From contig CACPKH010000001.1 in assembly GCA_902634515.1 (NCBI GenBank), forward strand, positions 62,001 through 126,000: a stretch of DNA of 64,000 bases, read 5' to 3'. The translations under genes and the position numbers were made by a program. Below are positions 3,521 through 60,654 of this stretch, piece after piece (position 1 is the first letter of the stretch; every line of letters begins with the position of its first letter). Under the pieces are notes generated by a model that searched no databases, was not told where the DNA came from, and saw only the letters and a list, made by a program, of their open reading frames with translations. Source of the stretch: an uncultured Prochlorococcus sp. (GTDB taxonomy: Bacteria; Cyanobacteriota; Cyanobacteriia; PCC-6307; Cyanobiaceae).

Positions 3521-4900
3521 TTAGAGGAGTTTGTTTATTTCATTTTTGAATTCACTTCTTTGCTTTACACCTTTCCATTGGTAATAAAGTTTTTTTGATT
3601 TAAATAATTGAATTGTAGGTGTGCCATTTACATTAGCTTGCTTAGCAATATCTTCTTCCTTTTCAATATCAATTTCTATACCAAGAGCCTTCCCTTCTAG
3701 TTCTGTCAAGACTCTTTTTAATTGGGGCTTAAGTACATGACAGGGTCCACAATTAGGTGATGTATAAACAACTAATAAAGGTAATTTGCTTTCATGGTAG
3801 AGCTTCCGTAGTGCATAACTACCTTTTTGCCAAAGTGCATCATCTTGAAAGTTTTCTTTGGTACTGATTTCACTTTCATCAAACGACTTTGCTTCTTTAG
3901 GCTCAACTTCTTCTCTTTTTATTAAACATGAAAGGTTTTCTAAAGTTAGCCATCTTTCAGCCGCCAAGGCTGCTTTGCATCCGCTCCCTGCAGCAGTTAT
4001 GCCTTGACGCCATTCAGAATCACAAACATCACCTGCTGCGAAAATACCTTTTAAAGATGTCTCTGGTCGTCCTGGCTCAGTAAGAATATATCCATTGCTG
4101 TCTAGCTTTAATTGATCTTTAAAGAGTTCAGTATTTGGAGTATGGCCTATTGCATAGAAAAGACCTTTCGCATTAATTTTTTTTATTTTATTTGTATCCC
4201 TTTTTCTTAGAATTAAAGAAGATATCCAGTCTTTGCCTTCAACGTCTAATAATTCTGTTTCCCAATGAATTGTTATTTGATTATTTGAAGTTACACGATC
4301 TGACATTGCAGCACTTGCTTTTAACTCTTTAGATCTAACGATCAAATGAACTTGACTTCCATATTTAGTTAAATACACAGCCTCTTCACAGGCTGAATCT
4401 CCTCCGCCTACAACAGCTAGTTCTTCGTTTCTGAATTGAGGTGTTGCGCCATCGCATATAGCACAAGCACTAATACCTTTACTCCAAAACTCAGTTTCAT
4501 TTGGAATCCCTAGTTTATTAGCGCTTGCCCCAGTGGCGATAATTAAAGAATGTGTCTTAATTAGTTCAGTTGAGGTCTTTATAGAAAAAGGTTTGCTATT
4601 GAAATCAACCTCTTCAGCATCTTCTTCAATAAGATTGCTACCCCATCTCAAAGCTTGGGATTTGATTAGATCCATTAATTCTGGACCCATTATTCCATTA
4701 GGGAATCCAGGATAATTTTCTACAAATGTTGTAGTCATTAACTGACCACCAGGAATTCCTCCTTTTTGGAAGCCTGTAATAATTAATGGATTTAGGTTTG
4801 CTCTGGCTGCATAAATTGCAGCTGTATATCCTGCAGGACCTGAACCAATAATTACAAGGTTTTCAGTTTCAAGCTTGTTTTGTATTTGCCTTTCGGCCAT
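3521..4900 (-). CDS. trxB: NADPH thioredoxin reductase fused to thioredoxin (NTRC-like)
   Basis: 459 residues with two enzymes in one chain. Residues 1-320 are thioredoxin reductase: GSGPAGY (19-25) binds FAD, CAIC at 146-149 is the redox disulfide, [10 protein letters not shown] near 165-174 binds NADPH, and AAGDVCD closes the FAD site. A linker follows, then a thioredoxin domain with CGPC at 384-387 and the cis-proline GTPT near 427. This is the architecture of plant and cyanobacterial NTRC, which passes NADPH electrons to 2-Cys peroxiredoxins and other targets. It is convergent with infA. Confidence 0.95.
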
Positions 4901-17641: not shown

Positions 17642-18733
17642 ATGCTTAAAGCAGGAATTGTTGGGTTGCCAAATGTTGGAAAGTCAACTTTGTTTAATGC
17701 ACTTGTTGCCAATGCTCAGGCACAGGCTGCAAATTTCCCTTTTTGTACCATTGAACCAAATGTTGGTTCGGTTTCAGTCCCAGACGAGCGATTGCATTTA
17801 CTTGGGGATTTAAGCTCTAGTAAACAAATTATCCCAACAAGAATTGAATTTGTAGATATTGCTGGACTTGTAAAAGGAGCTAGTCAGGGAGAAGGCTTGG
17901 GGAATAAGTTCTTATCTAATATTCGAGAGGTTGATGCGATAGTTCATGTCGTTCGATGCTTTGATGATGAAAATGTTATTCATGTTTCAGGGAGCGTTGA
18001 TCCAATACGAGACATAGAAATAATTAACTTGGAACTCGGTTTAGCAGATCTTGCTCAAATCGAAAGGAGAAGAGATCGTTTGAAAAAACAGATTCGTACC
18101 AGCAAAGAAGCACAAGTTGAAGATCAGGTTTTAGAAAAAGTATTTCTTGCAATTGAAAATGGTCTGGGAGCGAGAACCCTTGAGATAAGTGAGGAAGAGA
18201 GAATACTTATAAAACCTTTGGGATTATTAACTTCCAAACCTATTATTTATGCAACTAATTTAAGTGAGTCAAATCTAGCGAAAGGAAACTCTTTCTCAGA
18301 AGATGTGAAAAACTGGTCTAAGAAAGAGAATGCAGAGAGTATACGGATATCAGCTCAAGTAGAGGCAGAATTGATTGATTTAGGGGAGAAAGAAAGAATG
18401 GATTATTTGTCAGATTTAGGAGTTGAAGGCGGAGGATTGCAAAGCCTTGTAAAAGCTTGCTATAAACTTTTGGGCTTACGCACTTATTTTACTACGGGTG
18501 AGAAAGAGAGCCGAGCTTGGACAATAAAATCAGGAATGAAAGCTCCTCAAGCTGCAGGTGTAATTCACACTGATTTTGAAAAAGGTTTTATTCGGGCCCA
18601 AACTATAGGCTATAGGAAATTACTAGAAGCTGGTTCAATTGGCGAAGCAAGAAGTAAAGGGTGGATAAGAAGTGAGGGCAAAGATTACCTTGTTGAAGAA
18701 GGAGACGTAATGGAATTCTTATTTAATGTCTAA
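17642..18733 (+). CDS. ychF: Ribosome-binding ATPase/GTPase YchF
   Basis: 363 residues. G1 is GLPNVGKSTLFNAL, G3 is DIAGLVKGASQGEGLGNKFL, and the family-altered G4 is ATNLSESN (not NKxD, consistent with ATP preference). A coiled-coil insertion lies near 130-170 and the TGS domain closes the protein. YchF binds 70S ribosomes. The last codons encode MEFLFNV and a stop, and this tail recurs three times downstream, see the repeats at 20403, 21304 and 23501. The final 26 bases plus about 22 bases beyond the stop behave like an attachment site. Confidence 0.97.
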   Translation: MLKAGIVGLPNVGKSTLFNALVANAQAQAANFPFCTIEPNVGSVSVPDERLHLLGDLSSSKQIIPTRIEFVDIAGLVKGASQGEGLGNKFLSNIREVDAIVHVVRCFDDENVIHVSGSVDPIRDIEIINLELGLADLAQIERRRDRLKKQIRTSKEAQVEDQVLEKVFLAIENGLGARTLEISEEERILIKPLGLLTSKPIIYATNLSESNLAKGNSFSEDVKNWSKKENAESIRISAQVEAELIDLGEKERMDYLSDLGVEGGGLQSLVKACYKLLGLRTYFTTGEKESRAWTIKSGMKAPQAAGVIHTDFEKGFIRAQTIGYRKLLEAGSIGEARSKGWIRSEGKDYLVEEGDVMEFLFNV

Positions 18734-18755
18734 GAAATTAGTCATAGCAAGACTT
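18708..18755 (+). repeat. Putative attachment core at the ychF 3' end
   Basis: 48 bases covering the last codons of ychF and the start of its 3' flank. It aligns without gaps to 21390-21437 with 8 differences by eye, and its first 27 bases match 23587-23613 with 3 differences. Within codons almost all changes are synonymous (Leu TTA/TTG, Asn AAT/AAC, Val GTC/GTA, stop TAA/TAG). That is the pattern expected when elements integrate into a gene's 3' end and restore it. Calling it an att core is inference. Confidence 0.6.
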
Positions 18756-18815
18756 TTTAGAGTTAGAGCCAGTGAAAATGCCAACCAATTCATGCCATGA
18801 AATCTTGATGATGAC

Positions 18816-19373
18816 ATGAAGTTCATATTTTTAAAAACAGTTTGCACCATTGGCGCATTTGCTCTCTGTGTTATCGCTTACAACAGCTTTAAGTCATCTA
18901 ATCGTTTAAGACTTGCTGAAGACCAAGATTTCCTCCTAATCAGAGTCAAGGAAGATCTTCTTAATTCATGTGATGACGTACAACCTTTTACTCGCATAAA
19001 TCAAGTAAGTTGTTATCGATCGTTAGTGAAGGATTTAGATGCGGAATTGGAAGTTATTTTGGATAATCAAAGGCTAGGTAATAGGCGTTATAAGGAAAAA
19101 TTATTAAGTAACAAACATTCCGTATACAATGTTGCAATTGATTCCAATACTTTAGAAGATTGGCAAAAAGTTAGAGAAAACATATGTTCGGCAACTAATT
19201 GGTCCTGGCGTGGTGCAAGAATTTTCGGACTCACAATGGCAGCTTGCGAAGTCAAATTAAACCGAATTCTGATTGAATATATGAAATATGAATGTATTGG
19301 TCAAACAGTTTGTATTGATAGGTATAAACGATATTTAAATCCAGCTGAAGCTGTCGATTTAAAGTATCCCTAA
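18816..19373 (+). CDS. Hypothetical membrane-anchored or exported Cys-containing protein
   Basis: 185 residues. An N-terminal hydrophobic segment (FIFLKTVCTIGAFALCVIAY) is a signal anchor or uncleaved signal. The rest is soluble, charged and contains several cysteines (NSCDDV, VSCYRS, NICSATN, AACEVK, YECIGQTVCID), so disulfides outside the cytoplasm are plausible. No family is recognised. It is the first gene after the ychF tail and may be cargo of the putative inserted segment. Confidence 0.7.
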   Translation: MKFIFLKTVCTIGAFALCVIAYNSFKSSNRLRLAEDQDFLLIRVKEDLLNSCDDVQPFTRINQVSCYRSLVKDLDAELEVILDNQRLGNRRYKEKLLSNKHSVYNVAIDSNTLEDWQKVRENICSATNWSWRGARIFGLTMAACEVKLNRILIEYMKYECIGQTVCIDRYKRYLNPAEAVDLKYP

Positions 19374-19623
19374 TAAAAAACTACTTGTCATATTGTATGC
19401 TCTTATCTTGTGACAGCAACTGCAATATTTCTTTAAGCAATATTTTAATCTTTAGAATAAAAACCGTTAGAATTTGTGTCTGAAAAATTTTTATTTTAGA
19501 AAATTTCTTAGTCTCATTTTTTAACTTTAATAAAGAGTCAGAAAGTTTTTAAAATAAGCAAACAGTTTAAATTATTGCTAACAAATCTCGTTGGTTGTAT
19601 TCTTGTAGAAAATAGACTTTGAA

Positions 19624-20289
19624 ATGATTAAGAAAATATTCTTTTTGTTGATGTTACTCCCACTTGCTTCTTGTGTTAGGCCAAAATTTAGTGCCTCTTT
19701 AATTAATAAAGAACCAAGTGAATTAAAAAGACTCCGTCAATTAGCTAGTTCTGATAAGTGCATGAATGACAATGGCTCATTTAATAAATGCCTTAAGAAT
19801 AATTCTATTCCTTCTTTAGATTGGGTGTTTATGGGCGAAGATAGGTTTTCGAGTAGTAACCCTTCTATTTATTATCATTATATAGCGAACCCAAGAAGAA
19901 TGCCTTTCTCAGATGTTGTTATATTTAATTATCTTGGGATTATTATTAATCAGGAATTTGATGATAATTACAAAATAATTTTACATCCACCAGGTTATAC
20001 GCATAAGTTTAATTGTGAGACTTTTGAATATAAAGTGAAAGAGTGGGATTTTTATAGCAATGAATTCACTCAAACATGGTCGAAAGGAGGGATGATTGAT
20101 TTAAAAACACCAAATTACAGAACATTTGAAAAATACAAATCTTCAAAGCATTTTTTAGGGTTTCCAAGATTTCCTAGTGACACACCTGAAGTAACAAAAA
20201 TGCTTAATGAATCAGAAGAAAAGAGCTATAGGCTAAAGATGCAAGGTGTCAAGAACTTTAATTACATTTGCAAAAAGCTTATCAAATAA
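19624..20289 (+). CDS. Hypothetical lipoprotein
   Basis: 221 residues beginning MIKKIFFLLMLLPLASC, a textbook lipobox (L-A-S-C, lipidated Cys at 17). The mature part is Asn-, Lys- and aromatic-rich with paired cysteines (KCMNDNGSFNKCLKNN; later FNCETF and YICKKL). No domain is recognised. About 250 bases upstream hold no gene. Like its neighbour at 18816, it lies between ychF and the first downstream copy of the ychF tail, with AT-rich codon use. Confidence 0.72.
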   Translation: MIKKIFFLLMLLPLASCVRPKFSASLINKEPSELKRLRQLASSDKCMNDNGSFNKCLKNNSIPSLDWVFMGEDRFSSSNPSIYYHYIANPRRMPFSDVVIFNYLGIIINQEFDDNYKIILHPPGYTHKFNCETFEYKVKEWDFYSNEFTQTWSKGGMIDLKTPNYRTFEKYKSSKHFLGFPRFPSDTPEVTKMLNESEEKSYRLKMQGVKNFNYICKKLIK

Positions 20290-20402
20290 GCTCTATAACT
20301 AAGAGGCCTCACACTTGTGAAAAGTGAAAGAGGAGAGTAAGGGCTTAAAGAAGACGCTATGCTCTTTTTTTACTTTTTAGTCTCAAATCATTCTCAAGCT
20401 AG

Positions 20403-20515
20403 GTCTAACTATAGAAAATCTAGTCTAACTTTTTTATGTTCTTGTCTAACCCTGTAAGACATGGTTAAACCCTTTGGTATCACTGATAGTGTAACGTTCT
20501 TGTTTAATGTATAGG
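20403..20515 (+). repeat. Repeat unit copy 1: phased GTCTAAC boxes plus degenerate ychF tail
   Basis: GTCTAAC occurs at 20403, 20423 and 20444, and a variant GTTAAAC at 20464, so the starts are spaced 20, 21 and 20 bases. The unit ends in TTCTTGTTTAATGTATAGG (20497-20515), which reads as codons for FLFNV-stop, the YchF C-terminus. The preceding codons are changed (SVT where ychF has VME). No plus-strand gene follows: the next genes are on the opposite strand from 20670. The rest of 20290-20669 shows no gene. Confidence 0.7.
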
Positions 20516-20669
20516 CAGATCCCTTCCTGTACAGTTCATTTGACTATCCTTTTATTATAATTATCCTCTTACAAATAGTCAGAAACTTGATCATATGAAA
20601 TACTTTTAGTTGATTAAAACGTCTTTTGAATGATTTTCGATGATTAATTGATTTATTTTTGACAGATTC

Positions 20670-20849
20670 CTAATCTTTTAGGTGCACAAAACTATTCCTG
20701 TTTAGACTCAGGAATATTATTATAAAAGAGAATCCTAGTAAAAATGCAGTAGTTAATATAAGGATGAATGCTATTAAGCTGTAGTCTGAATTGAAGAAAA
20801 TAGCCGATTCAGCCATTTGCTTTAAGTAAGAATCATTTAAATAAGACAT
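20670..20849 (-). CDS. Small single-helix membrane protein
   Basis: 59 codons from ATG 20849, or 48 from ATG 20816 (MAESAIFFNSDYSLIAF). One long hydrophobic segment (LIAFILILTTAFLLGFSFII) is followed by a short basic tail ending HLKD. It starts 6 bases after the stop of the small protein at 20856-21044, so the two are probably an operon. The longer start gives the tighter spacing. Function unknown; the shape resembles small photosystem subunits, but I find no specific match. Confidence 0.6.
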   Translation of the reverse strand: MSYLNDSYLKQMAESAIFFNSDYSLIAFILILTTAFLLGFSFIIIFLSLNRNSFVHLKD

Positions 20850-20855
20850 TAAACT

Positions 20856-21044
20856 TTAGTTGTCTCCATGAGTATGAGCAATGCCTAATTCATGCATACG
20901 TGCATGTTCATCAATACTATCTGTCAATCCTTTGGCGCCAGGACCAAATGAGTTGTACATTCCATATGCTACTGAACCAAATAAGAAAAATAAAATAATT
21001 CCTATCATTAGATAAGGTGTAGGGTGAAAGCTAGATGATTCCAA
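20856..21044 (-). CDS. Small membrane protein with PsbN-like tail
   Basis: 62 residues: one helix (YLMIGIILFFLFGSVAYGMY), then NSFGPGAKGLTDSIDEHARM and a His-rich end (HELGIAHTHGDN). The segment after the helix resembles PsbN, whose conserved tail is (Y/F)xAFGPPSKxLxDPFDEHED. Here PP is GA, and the protein continues about 15 residues further. PsbN is a thylakoid protein needed for photosystem II assembly and repair. I call this PsbN-like only; a true psbN is expected elsewhere. Confidence 0.65.
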   Translation of the reverse strand: MESSSFHPTPYLMIGIILFFLFGSVAYGMYNSFGPGAKGLTDSIDEHARMHELGIAHTHGDN

Positions 21045-21303
21045 GAGGTTAATAGATTAAGGTTTAATCATCATTAATCATTATTTGATATTCTTCAAAT
21101 AAATCTTTTACTTTTTTGGTGATCAATTTTCTCTTTAAAGATGTCAGTTTGTTCGTTCTAAATGTTTTAATTGATTCAAGCTAAGGTTTGTATTTTCCTG
21201 AGACTTACCCATTGATTAGTCACCTCTGCTATGACTAGTATTTCACAATCAGGAGACTGAGATAGCTTTTATAGCAGTCAGTCTCAAATGCTTCTCATAT
21301 CAT

Positions 21304-21437
21304 GTCTAACCATCGAGAATTTAGTCTAACTTTTTTCGTGTTTGGTCTAACCATCATTCAGGGGGTCAAACGCTAGTCATAGCCTGATATAATGGAGTTC
21401 TTGTTTAACGTCTAAGACAGTAGTCTTAGCAAGGCTT
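21304..21437 (+). repeat. Repeat unit copy 2: phased GTCTAAC boxes plus ychF tail
   Basis: GTCTAAC at 21304, 21324 and 21345 and GTCAAAC at 21365 give the same 20-21-20 spacing as copy 1. From 21381 the codons read AGC-CTG without meaning, then GAT ATA ATG GAG TTC TTG TTT AAC GTC TAA, encoding DIMEFLFNV-stop as in YchF (DVMEFLFNV). Similarity to the ychF 3' flank continues to 21437. A 7-bp inverted repeat (CTAAGAC 21412-21418, GTCTTAG 21423-21429) lies just after the tail. TATAAT at 21388-21393 also looks like a -10 box. The 21045-21546 interval holds no gene. Confidence 0.75.
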
Positions 21438-21546
21438 CTGACAGGTTAGGCTAACAAGTTATCTAACCCAACAAAGAAAATTAAAAATAAAATTTATTTA
21501 GACCAACTAAGTATATAATATGCTCTACAAAGATTAGAAAAACATT

Positions 21547-23118
21547 ATGCTTTATTTAAAAAAAATATTAAATACTTTTTTTTATACTTTAACTTTATTG
21601 TTGTTTAATTCAATTGCAATAGCTGAAAATCTATCAGAACCACAATCAGAAAAACAGCTTTTAGCGGATGCTATAAAGGTTTATTCTTCCTTATCAACTC
21701 AAGATGATATAAAAACAAGGATAAGAAAACAAGAAGTGGTTATAAAGAAAATTGATGAAATAGTTGATAATTTCTCGGGTACTGATGCTGGAATTGAAAT
21801 ACTTATATCTGGTGACTTTGGGAAATATAATATAAATGCTATAAGAAAGAAATATATGGATGAACTAATTGCTTATAATCTTAAAACTTGTAAATCTGAA
21901 CCAAGCTTTAATTGCTTGGGTTTTGTTTCATTAGATAATGGACTCAAGGGATGTGATATAAAAGATGACTTTTCGGGAATAATTACTGCTAGCAAAAATT
22001 TTAGAAATGCATATAGTATTTTCAGTACTCAGGGTGATGGACAGAAATATAAGGTAGGAATTCTATCTAGTTTTAAAAATTGTGCTGCAGGTCAAAGCGA
22101 TTTTAAAAAAGATTTTCTTCACAGGGGATTAATCAACATTCTTCTTGATTCTGGAGATGAAAACAAGGCTGTAGGAATAACTCAAAACATGAAAACACCA
22201 ATATTTAAACTTTTAGCAGCCGCTGATATTCGATCATATCAAGGTAAACTGGATTATAAAACTTTAAAGGTTTTATTTGAAAAAGCAGAGAATCTCTCTA
22301 ATAAAACAGATCAAAATAGTGCGATGTTTACACTAATAAATACTGCTTATAAAGAGAATCTTGATCCTTATTCTAAAGGAGCCAAAAAAGCTAAAATAGC
22401 TATTTCATTTCCCCCCACTTATTCTTACAATGAATCACCATGTGGTGAACAAGCTCAGGGTAAATATTTAAGTGAATTAGCAATGGATTTTCTCTTTCTA
22501 GACTCCCAAGTTGAACGAAGCCCATATCTCACAATTAATGCTAGAGAAAAAGCTAGTGAAATTATTGAACAGTGTTCAAATTATGCACTTCAGCCTATAA
22601 ATTATTTTCTGAAGACAGATCTAAAATCAGCCAAAGCAATTAGGGAATTTCAGTCTCAACTTGGAAATGGCCAAAAGATTAACACTGATTTCTTTGTTAA
22701 AAATATTCCTTTAGAAAGCCTAATAGGTTATGTAACTTCAATGGAAGAGGAGATAAATGAATCAACGATGCAACTAAAAGCAGCTGGAACTCTCTTAAAG
22801 GGTAAAGAGCTTGAGGAATACAAAAGAAGCATTAAGCTTCAGCCTATGCACCTTAGAAAATTTTATATAAAACAAATGAGAAGTTTATCAGGAACAACTC
22901 CTATTTATCCTTTTGAAGATGAGTATGGGAAATTCAACCTATATAAATTATATATTGATAATGGAGATGTATGCAGAGCCTCTGAGACTCTTTTCAAGGA
23001 TATTAGAGGTGGAGATTATGAAGAAGAATCAGTTACTTACTTTATTACAAGTCCGAACATTTTAGTTAATAAAAAGTACAACTGTGGTGATGGTGAATTA
23101 GATCTACTATTAAACTAA
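21547..23118 (+). CDS. Large hypothetical exported protein
   Basis: 523 residues with a cleavable signal peptide (FFYTLTLLLFNSIAIA, cleavage near residue 26). The mature protein is mostly helical, Lys/Ser/Asn-rich, with repeated short helices (for example LFEKAENLSNKTDQNSAMFT) that could form an alpha-solenoid, though no TPR consensus is clear. Conserved-looking Cys pairs occur (CKSEPSFNCLGF, SPCGEQAQ, VCRASETL). It starts 110 bases after repeat copy 2, whose TATAAT could serve as its promoter. Function unknown. Confidence 0.75.
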   Translation: MLYLKKILNTFFYTLTLLLFNSIAIAENLSEPQSEKQLLADAIKVYSSLSTQDDIKTRIRKQEVVIKKIDEIVDNFSGTDAGIEILISGDFGKYNINAIRKKYMDELIAYNLKTCKSEPSFNCLGFVSLDNGLKGCDIKDDFSGIITASKNFRNAYSIFSTQGDGQKYKVGILSSFKNCAAGQSDFKKDFLHRGLINILLDSGDENKAVGITQNMKTPIFKLLAAADIRSYQGKLDYKTLKVLFEKAENLSNKTDQNSAMFTLINTAYKENLDPYSKGAKKAKIAISFPPTYSYNESPCGEQAQGKYLSELAMDFLFLDSQVERSPYLTINAREKASEIIEQCSNYALQPINYFLKTDLKSAKAIREFQSQLGNGQKINTDFFVKNIPLESLIGYVTSMEEEINESTMQLKAAGTLLKGKELEEYKRSIKLQPMHLRKFYIKQMRSLSGTTPIYPFEDEYGKFNLYKLYIDNGDVCRASETLFKDIRGGDYEEESVTYFITSPNILVNKKYNCGDGELDLLLN

Positions 23119-23253
23119 GTAAAATTAATAGTAGTAGCAATATTTATTAAAATTAAACCAGATTTCTTATGTTCTATCTATAAATTATTAAATCAAATAA
23201 ATTTCCTGATTTTTATGTAAATTCTATCCATCTCCCTCCATCTGATTCATTAA

Positions 23254-23526
23254 GTTTCTGCATCACCTAAACCAGCCAAGGTAAAGGCTTATCTGCAAGC
23301 GCAGCAATCAGGGGAAGTAATAGGCGTTTCCTATCTCAATTATCGAGCATTAACTCAATTCAAAGAGAAATTCAGAAGAATGCATTGTTCTCAGATTAAG
23401 ACTAGATCATTTAAAAATGTTTTGACTATATCTACGTTTTCAGGGCTAGGTTTCCGAGAACGTTTGCATCCCAACCTGTCTTGCCTCCGTCTTAAACCTT
23501 GTCTAACCAAGCAAAATCTAGTCTAA
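23254..23526 (+). pseudogene. Possible gene remnant without a start codon
   Basis: 90 codons are open between a TAA ending at 23253 and a TAA at 23524, but no good start exists; the first ATG is at 23390. The first half reads like real protein (KPAKVKAYLQAQQSGEV, then SYLNYRALTQFKEKFRRM) and is richer in G and C than its surroundings. The second half runs into repeat copy 3. I do not recognise the parent gene. It may be a decayed piece of an inserted element. Confidence 0.3.
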
Positions 23527-23613
23527 CTATTTTCGTGTTTGGTCTAACCATCATTTAGAGGGTAAAACGCCAGTCATAGCCTGATATAATGGAATTCTTG
23601 TTTAATGTATAGG
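23501..23613 (+). repeat. Repeat unit copy 3: phased GTCTAAC boxes plus ychF tail
   Basis: GTCTAAC at 23501, 23521 and 23542, then GTAAAAC at 23562, with spacing 20-21-20 again. The unit ends with GAT ATA ATG GAA TTC TTG TTT AAT GTA TAG, encoding DIMEFLFNV-stop. From the second box on, copies 2 and 3 are close to 90 percent identical by eye. TATAAT lies at 23585-23590, 16 bases after the fourth box. A small gene starts at 23691. Apart from the remnant at 23254, the 23119-23690 interval holds no gene. Confidence 0.75.
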
Positions 23614-23690: not shown

Positions 23691-23864
23691 ATGAAATTTG
23701 CACTTGCTAGACATGATGGAGAGGAAGATGAGATCACTTCTCAAAGTTTTGATCAATACGATGATGCTTATGAGTTGCTTGAGCAAATAGTAGGAGATCT
23801 TTGCTGCTCCGATGCTGATTACGATGACCATCCTTATTATGAAATCATTGAAGTCAAGAATTGA
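23691..23864 (+). CDS. Small acidic hypothetical protein
   Basis: 57 residues, strongly acidic, beginning MKFALARHDGEEDEITSQSF. It has LLEQIVGDLCCSDADYDDHP in the middle and EIIEVKN at the end. No membrane segment and no recognised domain; the two adjacent Cys are notable. It follows repeat copy 3 by 77 bases and could be transcribed from its TATAAT. Confidence 0.65.
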   Translation: MKFALARHDGEEDEITSQSFDQYDDAYELLEQIVGDLCCSDADYDDHPYYEIIEVKN

Positions 23865-24287: not shown

Positions 24288-24989
24288 TTAGCTGATCTTA
24301 TTTAGATCCTGTTCAATTTCAAATGGCTCAGTAATAATTTCAAGAGGACTAGGTTTATTATCTGAAGTAGAGGAGGGGTCTTCCATTAGTACGTCTATTT
24401 CTGAATCAGCTAACTCTTGTTCAATTTCAAATGGCTCAGTAATAATTTCAAGAGGACTAGGTTTATTATCTGAAGTAGAGGAGGGGTCTTCCATTAGTAC
24501 GTCTATTTCTGAATCAGCTAACTCTTGTTCAATTTCAAATGGCTCAGTAATAATTTCAAGAGGAGTAGGTTGATTATCTGAAGTATAGGAGGAGTCTTCC
24601 ATTAGTACGTCTATTTCTGAATCAGCTAACTCTTGTTCAATTTCAAATGGCTCAGTAATAATTTCAAGAGGATTCGTTGCATTCTCATTTCTTAAAAGAG
24701 GTTCTTTTAGTCCGACCTTTTGATTTTCTTCAATAACTAATTCTTCTTCATTATTTACATCCAAATAAATGTCTGCATTTTTATCTTCTATTAGTATTTT
24801 TGTCAGGTCTATTACATCAATAGTTAAGGACTTTTGACTTTGATAAATATCTTTTACTACCTTGATAATCTCACTGGATTTTGAACGCTGAGAAACAAGT
24901 GTATAGCTGGCCCATACAGCATATAAAATTGAAATTAGAACCAGAGAAATAATGACATAGTATGTTGCTTTAAAGAATTTATCAACCAT
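24288..24989 (-). CDS. Membrane-anchored acidic protein with tandem 36-residue repeats
   Basis: 233 residues. One N-terminal helix (TYYVIISLVLISILYAVWAS) anchors it. After an acidic linker come 3.5 tandem repeats of a 36-residue unit whose core is LEIITEPFEIEQELADSEID followed by VLMEDPSSTSDNKPSP. The repeat part is very acidic and probably extended. The last unit is truncated (EQDLNKIS). Two units are identical at the DNA level, so the length may vary between strains. Function unknown; a surface or tethering role is only a guess. Confidence 0.7.
   Translation of the reverse strand: MVDKFFKATYYVIISLVLISILYAVWASYTLVSQRSKSSEIIKVVKDIYQSQKSLTIDVIDLTKILIEDKNADIYLDVNNEEELVIEENQKVGLKEPLLRNENATNPLEIITEPFEIEQELADSEIDVLMEDSSYTSDNQPTPLEIITEPFEIEQELADSEIDVLMEDPSSTSDNKPSPLEIITEPFEIEQELADSEIDVLMEDPSSTSDNKPSPLEIITEPFEIEQDLNKIS
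24311..24675 (-). repeat. Tandem 108-bp repeats inside a coding sequence
   Basis: Units begin at 24311, 24419, 24527 and 24635 (plus-strand coordinates), exactly 108 bases apart. The first two are identical over all 108 bases by eye, the third differs at four positions and the fourth is a partial unit. 108 is a multiple of three, so unit gain or loss keeps the frame. The perfect identity points to a recent slippage or unequal recombination event. Confidence 0.95.
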
Positions 24990-27588: not shown

Positions 27589-28635
27589 ATGAGACGTTTT
27601 TTAGTTGGAATGGCAAGCATGTCGCTACTTTTAGGAGGGTGTGCAACAACTTCTGAGGTTAATCAATCAAGGCTTGACTTGATAAAAGAACGAAATGAAC
27701 TTGTTTGTGGAGTTAGTGGGAAAATTCCTGGATTCAGCTTTCTTGAAAGTGATGGGAGGTATCAAGGCATCGATGTTGATATATGTAAAGCGTTTGCGGC
27801 AGCATTTGTTGGTAATCCAGACAAAGTTCAATATAGGCCCCTAACGGCGGCTGAAAGATTCACTGCGGTTAGAACAGGTGAAGTTGATCTTTTGTCCAGA
27901 AACACCACGGTTAATTTGAGTCGAGACTCTTCTGGTGGGAATGGACTTACTTTTGCACCAGTTATCTTCCATGATGGACAAGGACTTATGGTGAAAAGAA
28001 ATAGTAGAATTAATAATATTAATGGTCTTGCTCGTAAATCAATTTGTGTAGGTTCTGGAACGACTACAGAGCAGAATATTAATGATGCTTTTGAAGCTAT
28101 ATCGCTTCCTTATACCCCTATAAAATATCAGGATTTAGATCAAGTTATTCAGGGTTATTCCCAGGGTAGATGTGCTGCTATGACATCTGATAGATCTCAA
28201 CTTGCTGCAGCTAGATCTAGCTTTGCTAGTCCTAAAGATCACATTATTCTTGAAGATGTTTTGAGTAAAGAACCGCTAGCGCCTGCTTCTTTAGGAGGAG
28301 ATCAGAAACTTTCAGACGCAATGAGATGGGTGATTTACTCACTTATATCTGCTGAAGAACAGGGAATTACAAAAGATAACATCGATGAAAAGTTAAAAAT
28401 GGCAAAAGAAAACTCTCAATTAAAACCATTGAGAAGGTTTTTGGGTGTAGAGGGTGATCTTGGTGAAAAATTAGGACTAGATAATGACTTTGTTGTTAAG
28501 GTGATTCGTGCCACTGGTAATTATGGAGAGATTTATGATCGTCACCTTGGACCTGATAGTGATGTCCCTATACCTCGTAGCTTGAATGAAATTTATACCA
28601 AAGGTGGAGTACATATCTCACCTCCTTTTAATTGA
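27589..28635 (+). CDS. Amino-acid ABC transporter, substrate-binding lipoprotein
   Basis: 348 residues, SBP family 3 (AapJ/BztA/NatF type). The signal MRRFLVGMASMSLLLGGC has a lipobox with Cys at 18. The domain starts with LVCGVSGKIPGFSFLES, then GIDVDICKAFAAAF, the alpha-amino and carboxyl binding region, and GEVDLLSRNTT. This group captures acidic and neutral amino acids in the periplasm. It heads a four-gene operon with two permeases and an ATPase. Substrate range cannot be fixed from sequence. Confidence 0.93.
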   Translation: MRRFLVGMASMSLLLGGCATTSEVNQSRLDLIKERNELVCGVSGKIPGFSFLESDGRYQGIDVDICKAFAAAFVGNPDKVQYRPLTAAERFTAVRTGEVDLLSRNTTVNLSRDSSGGNGLTFAPVIFHDGQGLMVKRNSRINNINGLARKSICVGSGTTTEQNINDAFEAISLPYTPIKYQDLDQVIQGYSQGRCAAMTSDRSQLAAARSSFASPKDHIILEDVLSKEPLAPASLGGDQKLSDAMRWVIYSLISAEEQGITKDNIDEKLKMAKENSQLKPLRRFLGVEGDLGEKLGLDNDFVVKVIRATGNYGEIYDRHLGPDSDVPIPRSLNEIYTKGGVHISPPFN

Positions 28636-28661
28636 TGTCAACAAATCAATAATGTCATGAC

Positions 28662-29564
28662 ATGAGAATTAAAAGATACAGAGGCTTATTCATTCAAGTA
28701 ATAGTTAGCACTTTGTTCATTTCTATAGTTGCGCTCTTTATTAATAATCTATCTGTAAACCTTTTGCGTGCTGGCCTTGGACTTAACTTTAGTTGGTTGT
28801 TCCGTTCAGCAGGCTTTGCATTAGCTGAACATCCCTTGCCATATTCCCCTTCTAGTAGTTATGCATGGGCCCTATTTATGGGTTGGCTAAATAGTTTAAA
28901 AGTAATCTCCTCATCGTTGTTAATAGCTACTCTAATAGGTTTTTTGGTCGGTTTTGCAAGCACAGGAACAAATACCTTGCTTCGAATATTGTCTAAATTG
29001 TATGTGACATTAATTAGGCAAACTCCTCTTCTTCTACAACTTATGTTTTGGTACTTTGTTGGATTCTTGAGTATTCAAGGGGAAATATTTTCTCCTATTA
29101 AAGGGATGTTAAGTTTATCCAATCAAGGAATAATTCTTTCTGGGATTAACCTTTCACCAGAATTCTCATCATTATTAGTTGGGCTAGGTATTTTTACAGC
29201 AGCATATATTTCTGAAGTTGTACGTGGAGGAATTAACTCTGTACCTATAGGTCAATGGGAGGCTTTTAGGAGCCTTGGGCTATCCGAAAATGATGGTTTA
29301 TATAAGATAATCATGCCTCAGGCTCTGCCTGCAATCTTACCAGGATTGACTAGCCAATATTTAAATCTTGCAAAGAACAGTACATTGGCAATTGCAGTTG
29401 GATATGCAGATATTTATGCGATAGGTGATACCGTCATAACTCAAACTGGACGAGCAATCGAGGGATTTCTATTATTGCTTTTAAGTTTCTTGCTCCTAAA
29501 CCTTATTATTAGCAACTTAATGGAGTTACTTAATAAGTATATTTTGACTTATAAACAACGCTGA
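28662..29564 (+). CDS. Amino-acid ABC transporter permease 1
   Basis: 300 residues, HisM-like. An N-terminal helix is followed by LFMGWLNSLKVISSSLLIAT, the HEQ/MetI-type core, and the EAA loop reads GQWEAFRSLGLSENDGLYKI with IMPQALPAILPG. TLIRQTPLLLQLMFWYF is the family motif. It pairs with the permease at 29577 to form the membrane pore. The gap to the binding-protein gene is 26 bases. It corresponds to AapQ/BztB/NatG. Confidence 0.92.
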   Translation: MRIKRYRGLFIQVIVSTLFISIVALFINNLSVNLLRAGLGLNFSWLFRSAGFALAEHPLPYSPSSSYAWALFMGWLNSLKVISSSLLIATLIGFLVGFASTGTNTLLRILSKLYVTLIRQTPLLLQLMFWYFVGFLSIQGEIFSPIKGMLSLSNQGIILSGINLSPEFSSLLVGLGIFTAAYISEVVRGGINSVPIGQWEAFRSLGLSENDGLYKIIMPQALPAILPGLTSQYLNLAKNSTLAIAVGYADIYAIGDTVITQTGRAIEGFLLLLLSFLLLNLIISNLMELLNKYILTYKQR

Positions 29565-29576
29565 TAAATTGAACTT

Positions 29577-30602
29577 ATGAATAAGAAGCATAATCTTTTC
29601 CCTTATATAAGGCGTATTGCTTTTTCAAACTCCTTAGACACTTGCATAACTCTATTTATCTTATTAGCAGTCTTTCTTTTATCGACAATTACAATTAAAT
29701 GGCTTCTTTTTGGAGCGGATTGGGCTGTAGTTATTCAAAACTATCCCTTATATGCATTCGGTCTTTTCCCTGCAGATCAAAGATGGAGACCAGCACTATG
29801 GTTATTGCTTTTGATTTCTCTTACAATCATTACACTTGTTGGCCCAAGGTGGCGTTGGCTTCGCAAACTTTTACCGATCACCTGGATAGGTGTTATTCCC
29901 CTTGGGATTGTTTTACTTTCGGGGGGATTAGGATTATTGCCTGTAGCAAGTAGATACTGGGGGGGTGTAACTCTTACAATCTTTTTGACCACTTGTAGTT
30001 CTTTATTAGCTTTTCCGCTGGGAATTATCTTGGCGATCGGAAGGCAAAGTGATTTGCCATTGATTAAGTTCTTCAGCTCAATATATATAGAGGCTTTAAG
30101 AGCAGTTCCCTTAATTGCAATTCTCTTTTTTGGCCAGCTTTTGATACCTTTGTTTTTCCCTATCGGTGTTGAGATAAATCGTGTGATTAGAGCTGTACTG
30201 GCTTTTACATTATTTGTCTCTGCTTATGTAGCAGAAGATATACGTGGAGGGTTTCAATCTATACCAAAAAGCCAGGAAGAAGCTGCAAAAGCTCTTGGAT
30301 TAAGCAAACTTCAAATTACTCAGTTTGTGATTCTTCCTCAAGCCTTAATTATTGCTTTACCTGCACTTACTAATCAAGCTATAGGACTACTACAAAATAC
30401 ATCTTTAATGGCAATCTTAGGATTAGTAGAGTTGCTTGGCATTAGTAGAAGTATACTTGCTAACCCACTATTTATTGGCCGGTATATGGAAGTATATGTA
30501 TGGCTTGCTGGAATCTATTGGCTTATATGTACAGTCATGGCACTTCTTGCTAGTCATCTTGAGCAGAAAGTGACTATTGAAAAACTAACAATAAAAAACT
30601 AA
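29577..30602 (+). CDS. Amino-acid ABC transporter permease 2
   Basis: 341 residues, about eight hydrophobic segments. The N-terminal half has the extra helices typical of AapM/BztC (FGADWAVV, then RWRPALWLLLLISLTI). The core contains GGVTLTIFLTTCSSLLAFPL and the EAA loop SQEEAAKALGLSKLQITQF with ILPQALIIALPALTNQ. It forms the second half of the pore. Its stop overlaps the start of the ATPase gene by one base (TAATG), so they are translationally coupled. Confidence 0.92.
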   Translation: MNKKHNLFPYIRRIAFSNSLDTCITLFILLAVFLLSTITIKWLLFGADWAVVIQNYPLYAFGLFPADQRWRPALWLLLLISLTIITLVGPRWRWLRKLLPITWIGVIPLGIVLLSGGLGLLPVASRYWGGVTLTIFLTTCSSLLAFPLGIILAIGRQSDLPLIKFFSSIYIEALRAVPLIAILFFGQLLIPLFFPIGVEINRVIRAVLAFTLFVSAYVAEDIRGGFQSIPKSQEEAAKALGLSKLQITQFVILPQALIIALPALTNQAIGLLQNTSLMAILGLVELLGISRSILANPLFIGRYMEVYVWLAGIYWLICTVMALLASHLEQKVTIEKLTIKN

Positions 30603-31345
30603 TGACTTCTGTAATAAGAACAAGAAAGTTAGTGAAAACTTTTTCAAAAGGTTTGCGTGCGCTTGATGAAATTTCTATGGAGGTAAAGAAAAAAGAAGTT
30701 CTTGTAGTAATGGGGCCTTCAGGCTCAGGTAAGAGCACTCTTATTCGCACATTTAATGGTCTTGAAACTTTTGACTCTGGAGAGCTTGAGATTGTTGGCA
30801 TACCACTTCATTCAGATCATAATGAAAGAAATGTTCGCGAGATAAGAAAACGTGTAGGGATGGTTTTTCAACAATTTAATTTATTCCCTCATCTCTCAAT
30901 TCTAGAAAACATTACTCTTGCTCCTATTAAGGTTCAGAAGCAGAATCGTATAGAAGCTGAAGAGCATGCCATGAGTTTGCTCTCCCAGATGGGCATCATA
31001 ACTCAAGCAAGAAAGTATCCAAGTCAACTTAGTGGTGGAGAACAACAAAGAGTAGCTATAGCTAGAGCCTTAGCATTAAAACCTGAATTACTATTATTTG
31101 ATGAACCTACCAGTGCCTTAGACCCTGAAAGAGTTGGAGAGGTTTTAGATGCCATTCGCTCTCTTGCTGAAAAGGGAATGACCATGGTTGTGGTGACACA
31201 TGAAGTTGGCTTCGCGAAGGAAGTTGCTGATAAAGTCTTGTTTATGGATTCAGGCAAAGTAATAGAAACATCAACCCCAGAAGTTTTCTTTACTAATGCA
31301 AAGCATGAAAGAAGTCGAAAATTTTTAAATCAGATTGGAGAATAG
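30602..31345 (+). CDS. Amino-acid ABC transporter ATP-binding protein
   Basis: 247 residues with all ABC motifs: Walker A GPSGSGKST, Q-loop VFQQFNLFPHLSILEN, signature LSGGEQQRVAIARALALKP, Walker B LLLFDEPTSALDP and the switch His in VVTHEVGFAKEVAD. It matches the polar amino-acid GlnQ/AapP/BgtA type and energises the two permeases. It is the last gene of the operon. Confidence 0.96.
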   Translation: MTSVIRTRKLVKTFSKGLRALDEISMEVKKKEVLVVMGPSGSGKSTLIRTFNGLETFDSGELEIVGIPLHSDHNERNVREIRKRVGMVFQQFNLFPHLSILENITLAPIKVQKQNRIEAEEHAMSLLSQMGIITQARKYPSQLSGGEQQRVAIARALALKPELLLFDEPTSALDPERVGEVLDAIRSLAEKGMTMVVVTHEVGFAKEVADKVLFMDSGKVIETSTPEVFFTNAKHERSRKFLNQIGE

Positions 31346-56862: not shown

Positions 56863-57936
56863 ATGCAGACCTACGGAAACCCAGATGTCACCTATGGGTG
56901 GTGGGTTGGTAATTCTGTAGTAACCAACAGAGCAGGGCGATTTATTGGCTCTCACGTTGGTCATACAGGAATTATTTGCTTCGCAACTGGTGCAAGTTGT
57001 TTATGGGAACTTGCACGTTTTGATTCCTCAATCCCTATGGGGCATCAAAGTTCTATATATCTCTCTCATTTGGCATCTCTTGGCATTGGCTTCGACGAGG
57101 CTGGAGTATGGACCGGAGCAGGTGTAGCAACAATTGCAATCTTTCACCTAATTTTTTCAGCAGTTTATGGAGGAGCAGGACTTCTTCATTCTTTATTGTT
57201 TGACCCTGATCTACAAGGCGGTCCAATTGGCCGAGTAGATAGATTTAAATTGGAATGGGATAACCCTGACAATATGGTGTTTATCCTTGGCCATCATTTG
57301 ATCTTTTTGGGTGTAGCGAATATCTGGTTTGTTGAATGGGCCAGAGTTCATGGAATCTATGACCCTGCAGTGGAGGCTGTGCGAACAGTTTTCCCAGGCT
57401 ATGGAGATTTTGGAATGGTATGGGGACACCAATTTGACTTTGTAAAAATAGACAGCCTTGAGGATGTAATGAGCGGTCATGCATTCTTAGCTTTCTTGCA
57501 GATTACTGGTGGTGCTTTCCATATAGCTACAGGCTCTACAACACCTTTTGAGCGGAAACGCCTTGGTGAATATGACAAATTTAAAGGTTCTGGGCTTCTA
57601 TCTGCCGAGGCAATTTTGTCATGGTCATTGGCTGGATTGTTTTTGATGGGAGTTGTTGCAGCATTCTGGGCCGCAACAAATACAACTGTTTACCCAACTG
57701 AGTGGTATGGCGAACCCCTTCAATTGAAGTTTGGTATTTCTCCTTATTGGGTTGATACTGGTGACATATCAGATTGCAAATACTTTTTTGGCCACACAAC
57801 TCGTGCTGCTTTAGTTAACGTTCAATATTATTTTGCGTTCTTCTGTCTTCAAGGCCATTTGTGGCATGCCTTACGTGCTTTGGGATTCGACTTCAGACGT
57901 ATTCCTCAAGCAGTAGGAGGCTTGACTGAGGCTTGA
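56863..57936 (+). CDS. pcb: Chlorophyll a/b-binding antenna protein Pcb (1)
   Basis: 357 residues of the CP43/IsiA/Pcb family with six membrane helices. It starts MQTYGNPDVTYGWWVGNSVV; conserved chlorophyll-ligand His occur in GSHVGHTG, PMGHQSS, LSHLAS, FILGHHLIF and QGHLWHALRA. The large lumenal loop of CP43 is absent, as expected. Pcb binds divinyl chlorophylls and forms rings or patches around the photosystems. It differs from the other two copies in the FPGYGDFGMVWGHQFDF loop. Iron-linked neighbours suggest induction by iron limitation (inference). Confidence 0.96.
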   Translation: MQTYGNPDVTYGWWVGNSVVTNRAGRFIGSHVGHTGIICFATGASCLWELARFDSSIPMGHQSSIYLSHLASLGIGFDEAGVWTGAGVATIAIFHLIFSAVYGGAGLLHSLLFDPDLQGGPIGRVDRFKLEWDNPDNMVFILGHHLIFLGVANIWFVEWARVHGIYDPAVEAVRTVFPGYGDFGMVWGHQFDFVKIDSLEDVMSGHAFLAFLQITGGAFHIATGSTTPFERKRLGEYDKFKGSGLLSAEAILSWSLAGLFLMGVVAAFWAATNTTVYPTEWYGEPLQLKFGISPYWVDTGDISDCKYFFGHTTRAALVNVQYYFAFFCLQGHLWHALRALGFDFRRIPQAVGGLTEA

Positions 57937-57974
57937 TATTAGGGCCTTTGTTAAATCCTCGATTTAGTTTTTTT

Positions 57975-58006
57975 AAACCTTGCCATTATTGGCAAGGTTT
58001 TTTTTT
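57975..58006 (+). terminator. Terminator after pcb 1
   Basis: AAACCTTGCC (57975-57984), loop ATTATT, GGCAAGGTTT (57991-58000) and a T run: a perfect 10-bp stem. A second imperfect stem-loop at 58016-58041 (AAGGCTGAG with CTCAACCTT) probably ends the opposite-strand gene at 58072. Confidence 0.92.
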
Positions 58007-58071
58007 GCCAATAAAAAAGGCTGAGTTTTTAACCTCAACCTTTTAATTGTTTTACTTAGTAAAACTGAGCT

Positions 58072-58263
58072 TTATTTCTTAGCCCATGGATCAATCCTTT
58101 TGGAGTCATCAGAATAATAAAAAAACTGACTCATGCCAAAGAATGCCCCTAATCCACATAGTGCAGCGCCTAAGTTAAAGCCTCCTGAAGGCTTTATTAT
58201 TCCTAGGTCTGAAGGATGTGGTAATTGAGTGGCGAAATCAAGAATGTGAGTAGGGTCAATCAT
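58072..58263 (-). CDS. Pcb-linked small membrane protein A
   Basis: 63 residues: MIDPTHILDFATQLPHPSDL, then KPSGGFNLGAALCGLGAFFG and MSQFFYYSDDSKRIDPW. One helix lies between the SGGF and SQF motifs. It is clearly related to 59871-60083 (DFATQLPHPSDIGLVKPSGG) and in its second half to 58313-58465. All three sit opposite the pcb genes. A role with Pcb or a photosystem is inferred from position only. Confidence 0.78.
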   Translation of the reverse strand: MIDPTHILDFATQLPHPSDLGIIKPSGGFNLGAALCGLGAFFGMSQFFYYSDDSKRIDPWAKK

Positions 58264-58312
58264 TTAATTGGAAAATAAGTTTTTGCTAAATCAGATCTGT
58301 ATGAACTGATAA

Positions 58313-58465
58313 TTACCCTTTTGAAGGATCGTTTTGATCTAAACCGTAATAGATGAACTGAGATACCTGGACAAATGCAATTAGTCCACATACTGCTGCT
58401 AGGCCGTTAAACCCACCAACTGTAATGGTAGAAAATAGAGGAGTTGAGTGAATGAGGGTAATCAT
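58313..58465 (-). CDS. Pcb-linked small membrane protein B
   Basis: 50 residues from ATG 58465: MITLIHSTPLFSTITVGGFN, then GLAAVCGLIAFVQVSQFIYY and GLDQNDPSKG. It shares GGF, CGL-x-AF, (V)SQF-x-YY and NDP with proteins A and C but has a shortened N-terminus without DFATQLPHPSD. It is 49 bases upstream of protein A on the same strand. Confidence 0.7.
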   Translation of the reverse strand: MITLIHSTPLFSTITVGGFNGLAAVCGLIAFVQVSQFIYYGLDQNDPSKG

Positions 58466-58569
58466 TTAATCGATAAAAGATTGCAAAATTTCCTAATAGA
58501 TAAACATAAAGAGCACAGAAAATCTCATCTCGTTGCATGTTGAAAAATGTTTTTTTATTTCTCTTACAT

Positions 58570-58655
58570 AAAGACCTTTAACTATTCCGTACATATTTAT
58601 GGACCACCATGTAGTGTTCATGGGGAATAGCGCCTTTTTCGCTCAAAAAGAAATT
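58570..58655 (+). promoter_or_regulatory. Conserved leader of pcb 2
   Basis: AAAGACCTTTAACTATTC at 58570-58587 is identical to 60573-60590 before pcb 3, and both are followed by CATATTTA and TGTARTGTTCAT at matching distances. The start codons lie 86 and 82 bases downstream. The shared element is probably the promoter and/or 5' untranslated region of coregulated antenna genes. Confidence 0.6.
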
Positions 58656-59705
58656 ATGCAGACCTACGGAAACCCAGATGTCACCTACGGGTGGTGGGCT
58701 GGTAATTCTGGAGTCACCAACCGCTCAGGCAAATTCATTGCAGCTCATGCTGCTCATACAGGACTAATTGCCTTTGGGTGCGGTGCAGCCACACTTGTGG
58801 AACTAGCAGGCTTTGATCCTTCATTACCAATGGGTCATCAGAGTTCTCTTTTCCTTGCTCACTTGGCATCTGTCGGTATTGGATTTGATGATGCTGGCGT
58901 ATGGACAGGTGTTGGTGTCGCCAATATTGCCATCGTTCACTTGATTCTCTCCATGGTTTATGGGGGGGGAGGCCTTTTGCATTCTGTCTACTTCACAGGA
59001 GATATGCAGGATTCAGAAGTGCCACAAGCTAGAAAGTTCAAATTGGAATGGGATAACCCTGACAATCAGACTTTTATCCTTGGCCACCATTTGCTGTTTT
59101 TTGGTGTTGCCAATATCTGGTTCGTAGAATGGGCCAGAATACATGGAATTTACGACCCTGCTATTGATGCAGTTCGTCAGGTTAACTACAACCTTGACCT
59201 TACCCAGATTTGGAATCATCAGTTTGATTTCCTTGCTATTGACAGCCTTGAGGATGTCATGGGTGGACATGCTTTCTTAGCCTTTTTCCAGCTTGGGGGT
59301 GGAGCTTTCCATATTGCAACTAAGCAAATTGGAACTTATACAAAATTCAAGGGAAAAGGCTTGCTTTCAGCTGAAGCAATTCTTTCTTGGTCTTTAGCAG
59401 GTATTGGTTGGATGGCATGTGTGGCAGCTTTCTGGGCCGCTTCAAACACAACTGTTTATCCAGAGGCCTGGTATGGAGAAGTCCTACAATTTAAATTTGG
59501 GATTGCTCCTTATTGGGTAGATACTGTTCCTGGCGGAACTGCTTTCTTAGGCCATACAACCAGAGCTGCTTTGGTTAATGTCCATTACTATTTAGGCTTC
59601 TTCTTTATACAAGGCCATCTTTGGCACGCATTGAGAGCTATGGGATTTGACTTCAAGCGTTTGCTTGACAGGACTGGTCCATTTGGAATACCAAGAACTC
59701 TTTGA
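58656..59705 (+). CDS. pcb: Chlorophyll a/b-binding antenna protein Pcb (2)
   Basis: About 349 residues from ATG 58656, chosen because MQTYGNPDVTYGWWAGNS is conserved in all three copies; an upstream in-frame ATG at 58599 adds a leader with no counterpart. Six helices with chlorophyll-binding His (AAHAAHTG, PMGHQSS, LAHLAS, FILGHHLLF, QGHLWHALRA). Compared with copies 1 and 3 it has a shorter loop at ATKQIGTYTKFKGKG and a VPGGTAFLGHT segment instead of the TGD-(I/L)-SD loop. Confidence 0.96.
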   Translation: MQTYGNPDVTYGWWAGNSGVTNRSGKFIAAHAAHTGLIAFGCGAATLVELAGFDPSLPMGHQSSLFLAHLASVGIGFDDAGVWTGVGVANIAIVHLILSMVYGGGGLLHSVYFTGDMQDSEVPQARKFKLEWDNPDNQTFILGHHLLFFGVANIWFVEWARIHGIYDPAIDAVRQVNYNLDLTQIWNHQFDFLAIDSLEDVMGGHAFLAFFQLGGGAFHIATKQIGTYTKFKGKGLLSAEAILSWSLAGIGWMACVAAFWAASNTTVYPEAWYGEVLQFKFGIAPYWVDTVPGGTAFLGHTTRAALVNVHYYLGFFFIQGHLWHALRAMGFDFKRLLDRTGPFGIPRTL

Positions 59706-59750
59706 AATAAAAGAGGACTTAGTTTTTCTATTAAGATTTAATAGTTTAAA

Positions 59751-59796
59751 AGCCAATAAAAAAACCCCTGCTTATATAGGGGTTTTTTTATTGGCT
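59751..59796 (+). terminator. Long perfect hairpin after pcb 2
   Basis: AGCCAATAAAAAAACCCCT (59751-59769), loop GCTTATAT, and the exact complement AGGGGTTTTTTTATTGGCT (59778-59796): a 19-bp perfect stem followed by more T. It can terminate in both directions. Confidence 0.9.
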
Positions 59797-59814
59797 TGGT
59801 TTTTTTATTAACCA

Positions 59815-59847
59815 TAAAAAAAGCAGAGCTTTTGACTCTGCTTTTTT
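59815..59847 (-). terminator. Terminator of the gene at 59871
   Basis: AAAAAAGCAGAG and CTCTGCTTTTTT flank a 7-base loop, just after the stop of the minus-strand gene at 59871-60083. Read on the minus strand it ends in a T run, and it can also back up termination of pcb 2. Confidence 0.85.
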
Positions 59848-59870
59848 ATTTGATTAATTAAATAATCAAA

Positions 59871-60083
59871 TTATCTAGATAACTTTTGTCTTTCAGTCCC
59901 TTCAAACTTTTCAGGATCATTACAGTCTCTCGCATACCAATGAAACTGAGATACTTGAATTATTGCAAGTATTCCAAAAATTACTGGGAGCAATTGGAAT
60001 CCACCTGATGGCTTTACTAAACCTATGTCTGATGGGTGAGGTAGCTGCGTCGCGAAATCCAGTAAATGCGAGAAATCAATCAT
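59871..60083 (-). CDS. Pcb-linked small membrane protein C
   Basis: 70 residues: MIDFSHLLDFATQLPHPSDI, then KPSGGFQLLPVIFGILAIIQ and VSQFHWYARDCNDPEKFEGT. It is a clear paralogue of protein A (58072), sharing DFATQLPHPSD and PSGGF, and like B has VSQF and NDP. A single helix lies between the motifs. It sits between pcb 2 and pcb 3 on the opposite strand. Confidence 0.78.
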   Translation of the reverse strand: MIDFSHLLDFATQLPHPSDIGLVKPSGGFQLLPVIFGILAIIQVSQFHWYARDCNDPEKFEGTERQKLSR

Positions 60084-60654
60084 CTATGCAATGAAAAGTA
60101 GATAAGTTATAGCCTAGAGCTTGGAATTATTTGCATGAAAAGGGGTTTTTTGACAAAACTGTTAATTTAATCAATCTATAAACACCTTAGAAATCCATTT
60201 ATAAAATTCAAAATTAAGGGAATTAGCTTTGAACCTTGATTGATTAGGAATGAAGTTTTTAAAATGTGAAAACCTTAAAACTTTCGAGCTTATCTCCGGT
60301 ATAACTTCACTTCCACTTTCCAACCCCAAGTCAGCTCTAGTTACTTCTTAATGATTTTTTTTTATTTTTACTTTTTTGTTTTGAAATCATATTTAGTAAG
60401 CTCCATCCATCTGTTGGTCATATAAATCTTTTTACTTGAACTTTCTAAAGCATTGCACTGCAGTCCTTTTCCCTTAATTGAATAATCATAATGAGTTGAA
60501 ATTTTTTTATAAAATTTGCTTGTTCAACCTGTTTTTCTCTTCAGATCAATATTTATTTCCTACCAACTAAATAAAGACCTTTAACTATTCTGCGCATATT
60601 TAATGAGCGCAGTGTAATGTTCATTGGATATTCGCCTGTATTGCTTAAAAAATT
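60084..60654 (+). promoter_or_regulatory. Intergenic region and conserved leader of pcb 3
   Basis: 571 bases without a gene. AAAGACCTTTAACTATTC at 60573-60590 is identical to the element before pcb 2, and TGTAATGTTCATTGG follows. The left part, near 60084-60200, should hold the promoter of the opposite-strand gene at 59871; nothing else is recognisable. Confidence 0.55.

Follow-up and report, generated by a model that had tools for sequence, protein, structure and literature searches.

The 3' end of the gene ychF is very probably a site-specific capture point at which tandem arrays of small DNA units are built. We describe one such array in a stretch of 64,000 nucleotides (nt) from an uncultured Prochlorococcus sp. 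(contig CACPKH010000001.1, positions 62,001 to 126,000), designated the 'window', where three units, or 'cassettes', follow ychF. The last 24 nt of the intact gene, which encode MEFLFNV and the stop codon, recur at the far end of each cassette (Table 1); these copies are called 'displaced tails'. The genome is picocyanobacterial, with 1.19 Mb assembled (66% complete), and was compared with 200 others of its family, giving a set of 201. Three pcb-like genes, the named neighbours recovered with ychF and the gene order polA-mfp-ychF all point to Prochlorococcus. Under the mechanism that we propose, units of about 0.5 to 4.5 kb, usually with one to three genes, would have, where their ends join, a copy of the approximately 24-nt tail flanked by repeated boxes of the GTCTAAC type. 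Recombination of this copy with the ychF end would insert the unit, restore ychF and displace the old tail to the far end. Repeated events would produce a tandem array, new units lying next to ychF and older ones being pushed outward and decaying, and the exported orphan proteins of the window would be cargo collected by this lineage.

Tail copies were counted behind ychF at 54 picocyanobacterial loci, the window and 53 others (locus L151, which is without ychF, was left out), allowing up to three mismatches and taking the expectation from shuffles. There were 32 copies on the ychF strand, where 0.8 were expected, and one on the other strand. The tails are real, far above chance, and the junctions have a single orientation. 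Displaced tail 1 of the window is too diverged to be among the 32. A preliminary description of this segment had held that its cargo lies between ychF tails at an insertion site; the excess of copies bears out the first point, and there is strong support for the second, namely that insertion takes place at the end of ychF and that the orphan cargo differs from one genome to the next. Since ychF has 363 codons at all 54 loci, insertion has left the gene unbroken. When the tail pattern was searched for with up to two mismatches in the 201 genomes, most had one copy and three (G129, G172 and G184) had six, some of the extra copies lying far from ychF. A junction profile built from 26 junctions (nhmmer) was used to find attachment (att) sites and arrays in the fetched regions, where the longest arrays had eight (G172) and seven (G086) displaced sites. 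Insertion has thus been repeated at one integration site and has lengthened the island, as is characteristic of an 'additive' flexible genomic island.

The junctions have a defined anatomy. For 59 displaced tails and 19 ychF ends that could be placed, boxes of the form [GT]TCTAAC were counted: at least one was present upstream of 44 of the 59 tails, and upstream of none of the 19 ychF ends. Arm sites resembling those of a phage attachment site (attP) are therefore confined to the element side, as in integrative elements that use a tyrosine recombinase. Relative to the tail, box positions cluster at -120 to -70 and at +40 to +59. Pairs of GTCTAAC spaced by 11 to 16 nt gave 31 matches in 17 of the 201 genomes, of which 25 were on ychF's own contig, within about 10 kb behind the gene. 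Of the others, one was on an array contig without ychF (G184:C29), two adjoined an exact tail copy (G079:C23), and three were strays (G020, G067 and G200). In G114, a larger genome (2.4 Mb) from a different genus, ychF is followed by three displaced tails with a box variant, GTCTAC, so the system extends beyond the close relatives of the window. The cargo of this last array (L220:3393-8320) includes two similar outer-membrane-like proteins.

Units are also found at different positions in different genomes. Over 697 nt (20497-21193), cassette 2 is 98.9% identical to locus L131 of a genome from another genus (G078), while ychF itself is only 72% identical, which points to transfer between genera. 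This identity begins inside the tail, 17 nt before the ychF stop codon. Unit 5 of G129 matches unit 1 of G160 (94.9% over 3610 nt; ychF 92%), and unit 3 of G145 matches unit 1 of G057 (95.4% over 2787 nt; ychF 85%); both matches end at tails. There is also similarity between unit 2 of G086 and unit 4 of G172 (87.3% over 1915 nt), and a clustering of 84 cargo open reading frames (ORFs) gave further families common to different arrays. Judged from these alignments, entire cassettes occupy different positions from genome to genome, with the breaks at tails. Homologous recombination between ychF regions could instead swap whole downstream segments, as in a replacement island, the tails being incidental. 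The order polA-mfp-ychF is indeed conserved upstream and the region behind ychF is hypervariable, as such exchange would give; but the similarity of cassette 2 breaks inside the tail, no extended homology flanks that break towards ychF, and the boxes keep a fixed spacing from the tail. We hold this explanation to be highly improbable.

The history of the array can be read in part from its order. A gene of 57 codons, o57, lies about 0.2 kb behind ychF at L133, L140 and L149; in the window it follows the last tail at a distance of 80 nt. We take it to mark the empty site, because it is directly behind ychF in relatives that have no inserts there; at L140 it is present both behind ychF and behind the second tail. 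As cassette 2 directly adjoins ychF at L131, it probably once held that position in the window too, cassette 1 being added later, although the two genomes may have gained it separately. Within arrays, the further a site lies from ychF, the lower its att score tends to be (15 arrays; mean rho -0.39, permutation P = 0.027), which supports insertion next to ychF and suggests that new units would enter there. Amino-acid ABC transporter genes are found further along the window (27589-31345); at L090, L137 and L150 their relatives follow ychF within a few kb, inverted at L137.

Because the boxes occur on the unit side, at a spacing of about two helical turns, and are absent from the ychF side, in the manner of attP and its chromosomal counterpart attB, the enzyme responsible would be a tyrosine recombinase. 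In 20 genomes searched with the PF00589 profile, no such gene was found within the arrays, and no larger integrase-bearing element linked to ychF was found either; the enzyme would hence act in trans. We infer from these sequences that integration may proceed by a tyrosine recombinase acting in this way. In several of the genomes searched, the single match was a protein of about 390 residues (L163:5133-6305). It is present in 188 of the 201 family genomes at a housekeeping position, with hemH-like and frr/pyrH-like neighbours (by eye, three genomes). Such a distribution makes it a candidate and not evidence, and rules it out as an enzyme specific to array-bearing genomes. Its best remote matches were to a XerA/integron-integrase model (3.7e-7, far below the cut-off) and to IntI4 (E = 0.007).

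The array could also be the eroded leftover of full-size integrative elements or prophages of the tycheposon type, each with its own integrase and with ychF as attB. Arrays without an integrase, and distal junctions that are often more decayed, agree with this. On the other hand, modules of 0.5 to 4.5 kb with both ends at tails recur in different genomes and positions (about 95% identity, 98.9% for cassette 2), which erosion of large elements does not readily give, and the PF00589 search of 20 genomes found none of the larger elements expected. We consider this origin unlikely. A strict integron-like system, with folded attC sites and an integron-type integrase, would account for arrays with one or few genes per unit and for the weak matches of the core recombinase. 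However, the PF00589 search found no intI beside ychF, units hold up to three or more genes on either strand, and the folding of the sites was not above background overall (bottom strand, P = 0.91); a strict integron is accordingly quite improbable. Folding z-scores below -2 were obtained for 11 of 59 sites (11 to 12 fold well), compared with 2 of 59 background windows, and a hairpin reading of the junction site failed on the overall comparison. A looser, integron-like platform is conceivable, if rather doubtful: the core 390-residue recombinase, or a transient helper, would mobilise integrase-free cassettes of 0.5 to 4.5 kb in trans, stack them at the ychF end and move single genes between genera.

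Several observations weigh against capture at the ychF end as we propose it. No recombinase gene was linked to the arrays in the 20 genomes, and the sole PF00589 match of the window genome is the core protein, which does not discriminate, most of the 188 genomes that have it being without arrays. The exact tail pattern had no match in viral contigs, and no free or circular form of a unit was seen. Only 11 of 19 ychF ends have boxes downstream of the tail, as do only 18 of 39 internal sites; such boxes also occur at 6 of 20 last sites, although the simple model predicts none there unless the array continues. The decay of the att score is not significant when pooled over all sites (rho -0.23, P = 0.088); the trend is reversed in four short arrays, including that of the window. 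Finally, the model accounts for array-like sites on contigs without ychF in G044 and G079 only if the assemblies are fragmented there or if the units have further targets. These junctions, with tail and boxes, are at L214:8087-9113 and L211:9371-11865, and could belong to broken arrays or to a second target.

Table 1. Features of the ychF-linked array in the window
Feature	Position	Strand	Description
ychF	17642..18733	+	Intact, 363 codons; last 24 nt (18710-18733) are the attB-like chromosomal attachment site
Cassette 1	18734..20513	+	o185, o221, right-end boxes, displaced tail; newest by position
o185	18816..19373	+	185 residues, N-terminal hydrophobic anchor, 8 Cys; remote LprI-like C-terminal half
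o221	19624..20289	+	221-residue lipoprotein, lipobox LASC, 5 Cys (one is the lipobox Cys); no family
Three GTCTAAC boxes	20403..20450	+	20-21 nt apart; right arm of cassette 1
Displaced ychF tail 1	20490..20513	+	Cassette 1/cassette 2 junction; nhmmer att match; most diverged of the three
Cassette 2	20514..21414	+	o62/o59 pair
o59	20670..20849	-	59-residue membrane protein, partner of o62; no Cys
o62	20856..21044	-	62-residue PsbN-like membrane protein; no Cys
Three GTCTAAC boxes	21304..21351	+	Right arm of cassette 2
Displaced ychF tail 2	21391..21414	+	Cassette 2/cassette 3 junction
Cassette 3	21415..23611	+	o523, right-end boxes, displaced tail
o523	21547..23118	+	523 residues, signal-peptide-like start, 8 Cys; orphan
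Three GTCTAAC boxes	23501..23548	+	Right arm of cassette 3
Displaced ychF tail 3	23588..23611	+	Last site of the array; read as the original ychF end
o57	23691..23864	+	57-residue gene marking the empty site

We then considered the cargo. The preliminary description had named an anchored protein of 185 residues, a lipoprotein of 221, a pair of tiny membrane proteins and a secreted helical protein of 523, several with cysteines and all unrecognised. All five genes are where it placed them, and o185, o221 and o523 do contain cysteines (Table 1). For o523, the signal-peptide-like start was found; 'helical' could not be upheld, the single-sequence structure model being unusable (mean predicted local distance difference test score, pLDDT, of 35), as was that of o185 (mean pLDDT 40). 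'Unrecognised' is right for o221 and o523, neither of which has a relative in the 200 other family genomes; o523 also has none in the phages or viral contigs searched and nothing by sequence in the PDB. It is nearly right for o185, found in 3 of 201 genomes, with two remote relatives (103 residues, E = 1e-4 and 7e-4) that have Trp, Arg and Cys positions in common with it. One relative, L190, scored 19.3 against PF07007 (LprI), under the cut-off of 22; o185 itself had no PF07007 match and gave only weak matches to PDB sequences. For o185, a periplasmic protein of the LprI type is no more than a lead. Candidate assignments of o185 to P-loop kinase 3, of o221 to FNIP and of o523 to PgaPase were rejected, each Pfam match being below the cut-off, and a PDB match of o221 to one designed protein (27 residues, no stretch passing alone) was disregarded.

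The description 'unrecognised' does not hold for o62, which passes the Pfam PsbN gathering cut-off (25.9 bits, cut-off 25) and fails that of the NCBIfam PsbN equivalog (30 bits, cut-off 70). The o62 pair is also the exception in presence and absence: the other cargo genes are not core genes at this locus in all strains, each being confined to the one to three genomes given above, whereas o62 belongs to a wider family, with close relatives in other genomes, mostly at other loci. An o59-like ORF adjoins the o62-like gene at 10 of 20 loci, that of the window included.

The genes had further been proposed to form a surface-directed set, typical of an island for interaction with phages or grazers. 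The description fits this genome, in which o185, o221 and o523 have the look of exported proteins with few or no relatives and the other two genes encode small membrane proteins; it does not fit the site. Of the 142 cargo ORFs predicted across 20 array regions, a crude criterion assigned a hydrophobic N-terminus to only 29 (about 20%), and export is not the rule for cargo at the ychF site. Annotation of ten chosen proteins from relatives' cassettes gave a broad and unrelated cargo, in part cytosolic and metabolic: enzymes (a circularly permuted ATP-grasp with Alpha-E and transglutaminase-like proteins; a metallophosphoesterase), TPR proteins, a DUF2079 membrane protein and one pilin-like protein. 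A carbamoyltransferase lies behind a junction of the same type at L214, and glycan-enzyme-like and methyltransferase-like ORFs were seen in further arrays (by eye). Searches of Pfam, NCBIfam and PHROG (the PADLOC library was not run) revealed no homologue among known surface or phage proteins, the only PHROG match for the window cargo being a weak one for o62. A functional island of this kind is very improbable, and a link of the cargo to phages or grazers is, on these comparisons, unsupported.

Elsewhere in the window, a 233-residue membrane-anchored protein (24288-24989, minus strand) has tandem acidic repeats of 36 residues, encoded by 108-nt repeats that are 93 to 98% alike. The interval 56863-61740 holds three consecutive pcb-like chlorophyll antenna genes (identified by eye) and, after them, a flavodoxin-like gene. 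An ORF of 459 codons (3521-4900, minus strand) appears by eye to be a fusion of thioredoxin reductase with a thioredoxin-like domain.

The setting, a cassette array at the ychF end, is more interesting than the cargo itself. The flexible gene pools of streamlined open-ocean cyanobacteria are large, and big mobile elements do not readily explain small inserts that recur. With its precise junctions, the defined ychF site offers a way to study how single genes are acquired. Cassette presence, order and relative age can be read from one genome or one long metagenomic read, biochemical methods can be used directly to look for the recombinase, and the arrays are a systematic source of orphan cargo genes. 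We found no description of a ychF array in the literature consulted on tycheposons, integrons, additive islands and ychF/engD, although the main tycheposon paper may mention one.

Several known systems can be compared with it. Lambda-type integration between attP and attB uses tyrosine integrases with arm sites. The ychF array is similar in having arm boxes on the element side only and a short shared core that restores the target gene; it differs in that no integrase or excisionase was found and in its repeated tandem use. Integrons likewise consist of short gene units with one recombination site each, but here no linked integrase was found, no general attC-like fold emerged over the 59 sites, and the target is the ychF end. 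In Streptococcus pneumoniae, the attB of prophage PPH005 lies between a DUF951 gene and ychF, and so is also beside ychF; it has another sequence and receives single prophages, with no cassette arrays (PMC8637289). Tycheposons, as outlined in PMC10872708, are elements of 4 to 200 kb that use tRNA genes and a tyrosine recombinase. They have the Prochlorococcus host group, site-specific integration and cargo carriage in common with the ychF units, which, at about 0.5 to 4.5 kb, located at ychF and with no PF00589 gene found in the 20 genomes, do not qualify as tycheposons. The closest parallel is fGI-2, an additive flexible genomic island at a tRNA-Lys gene of Ca. Methylopumilus (PMC10872708). 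Both systems have serial insertions at one site, repeats of the last 20 or so nt of the target, and inserts from 330 bp upwards with mostly unknown genes. The ychF array differs in targeting a protein-coding gene, the window containing no tRNA, in the coupling of its repeats to GTCTAAC box arms, and in units that occupy different positions across genomes and are shared between genera. The ychF array is a variant of the additive genomic island, sited at the end of a protein-coding gene.

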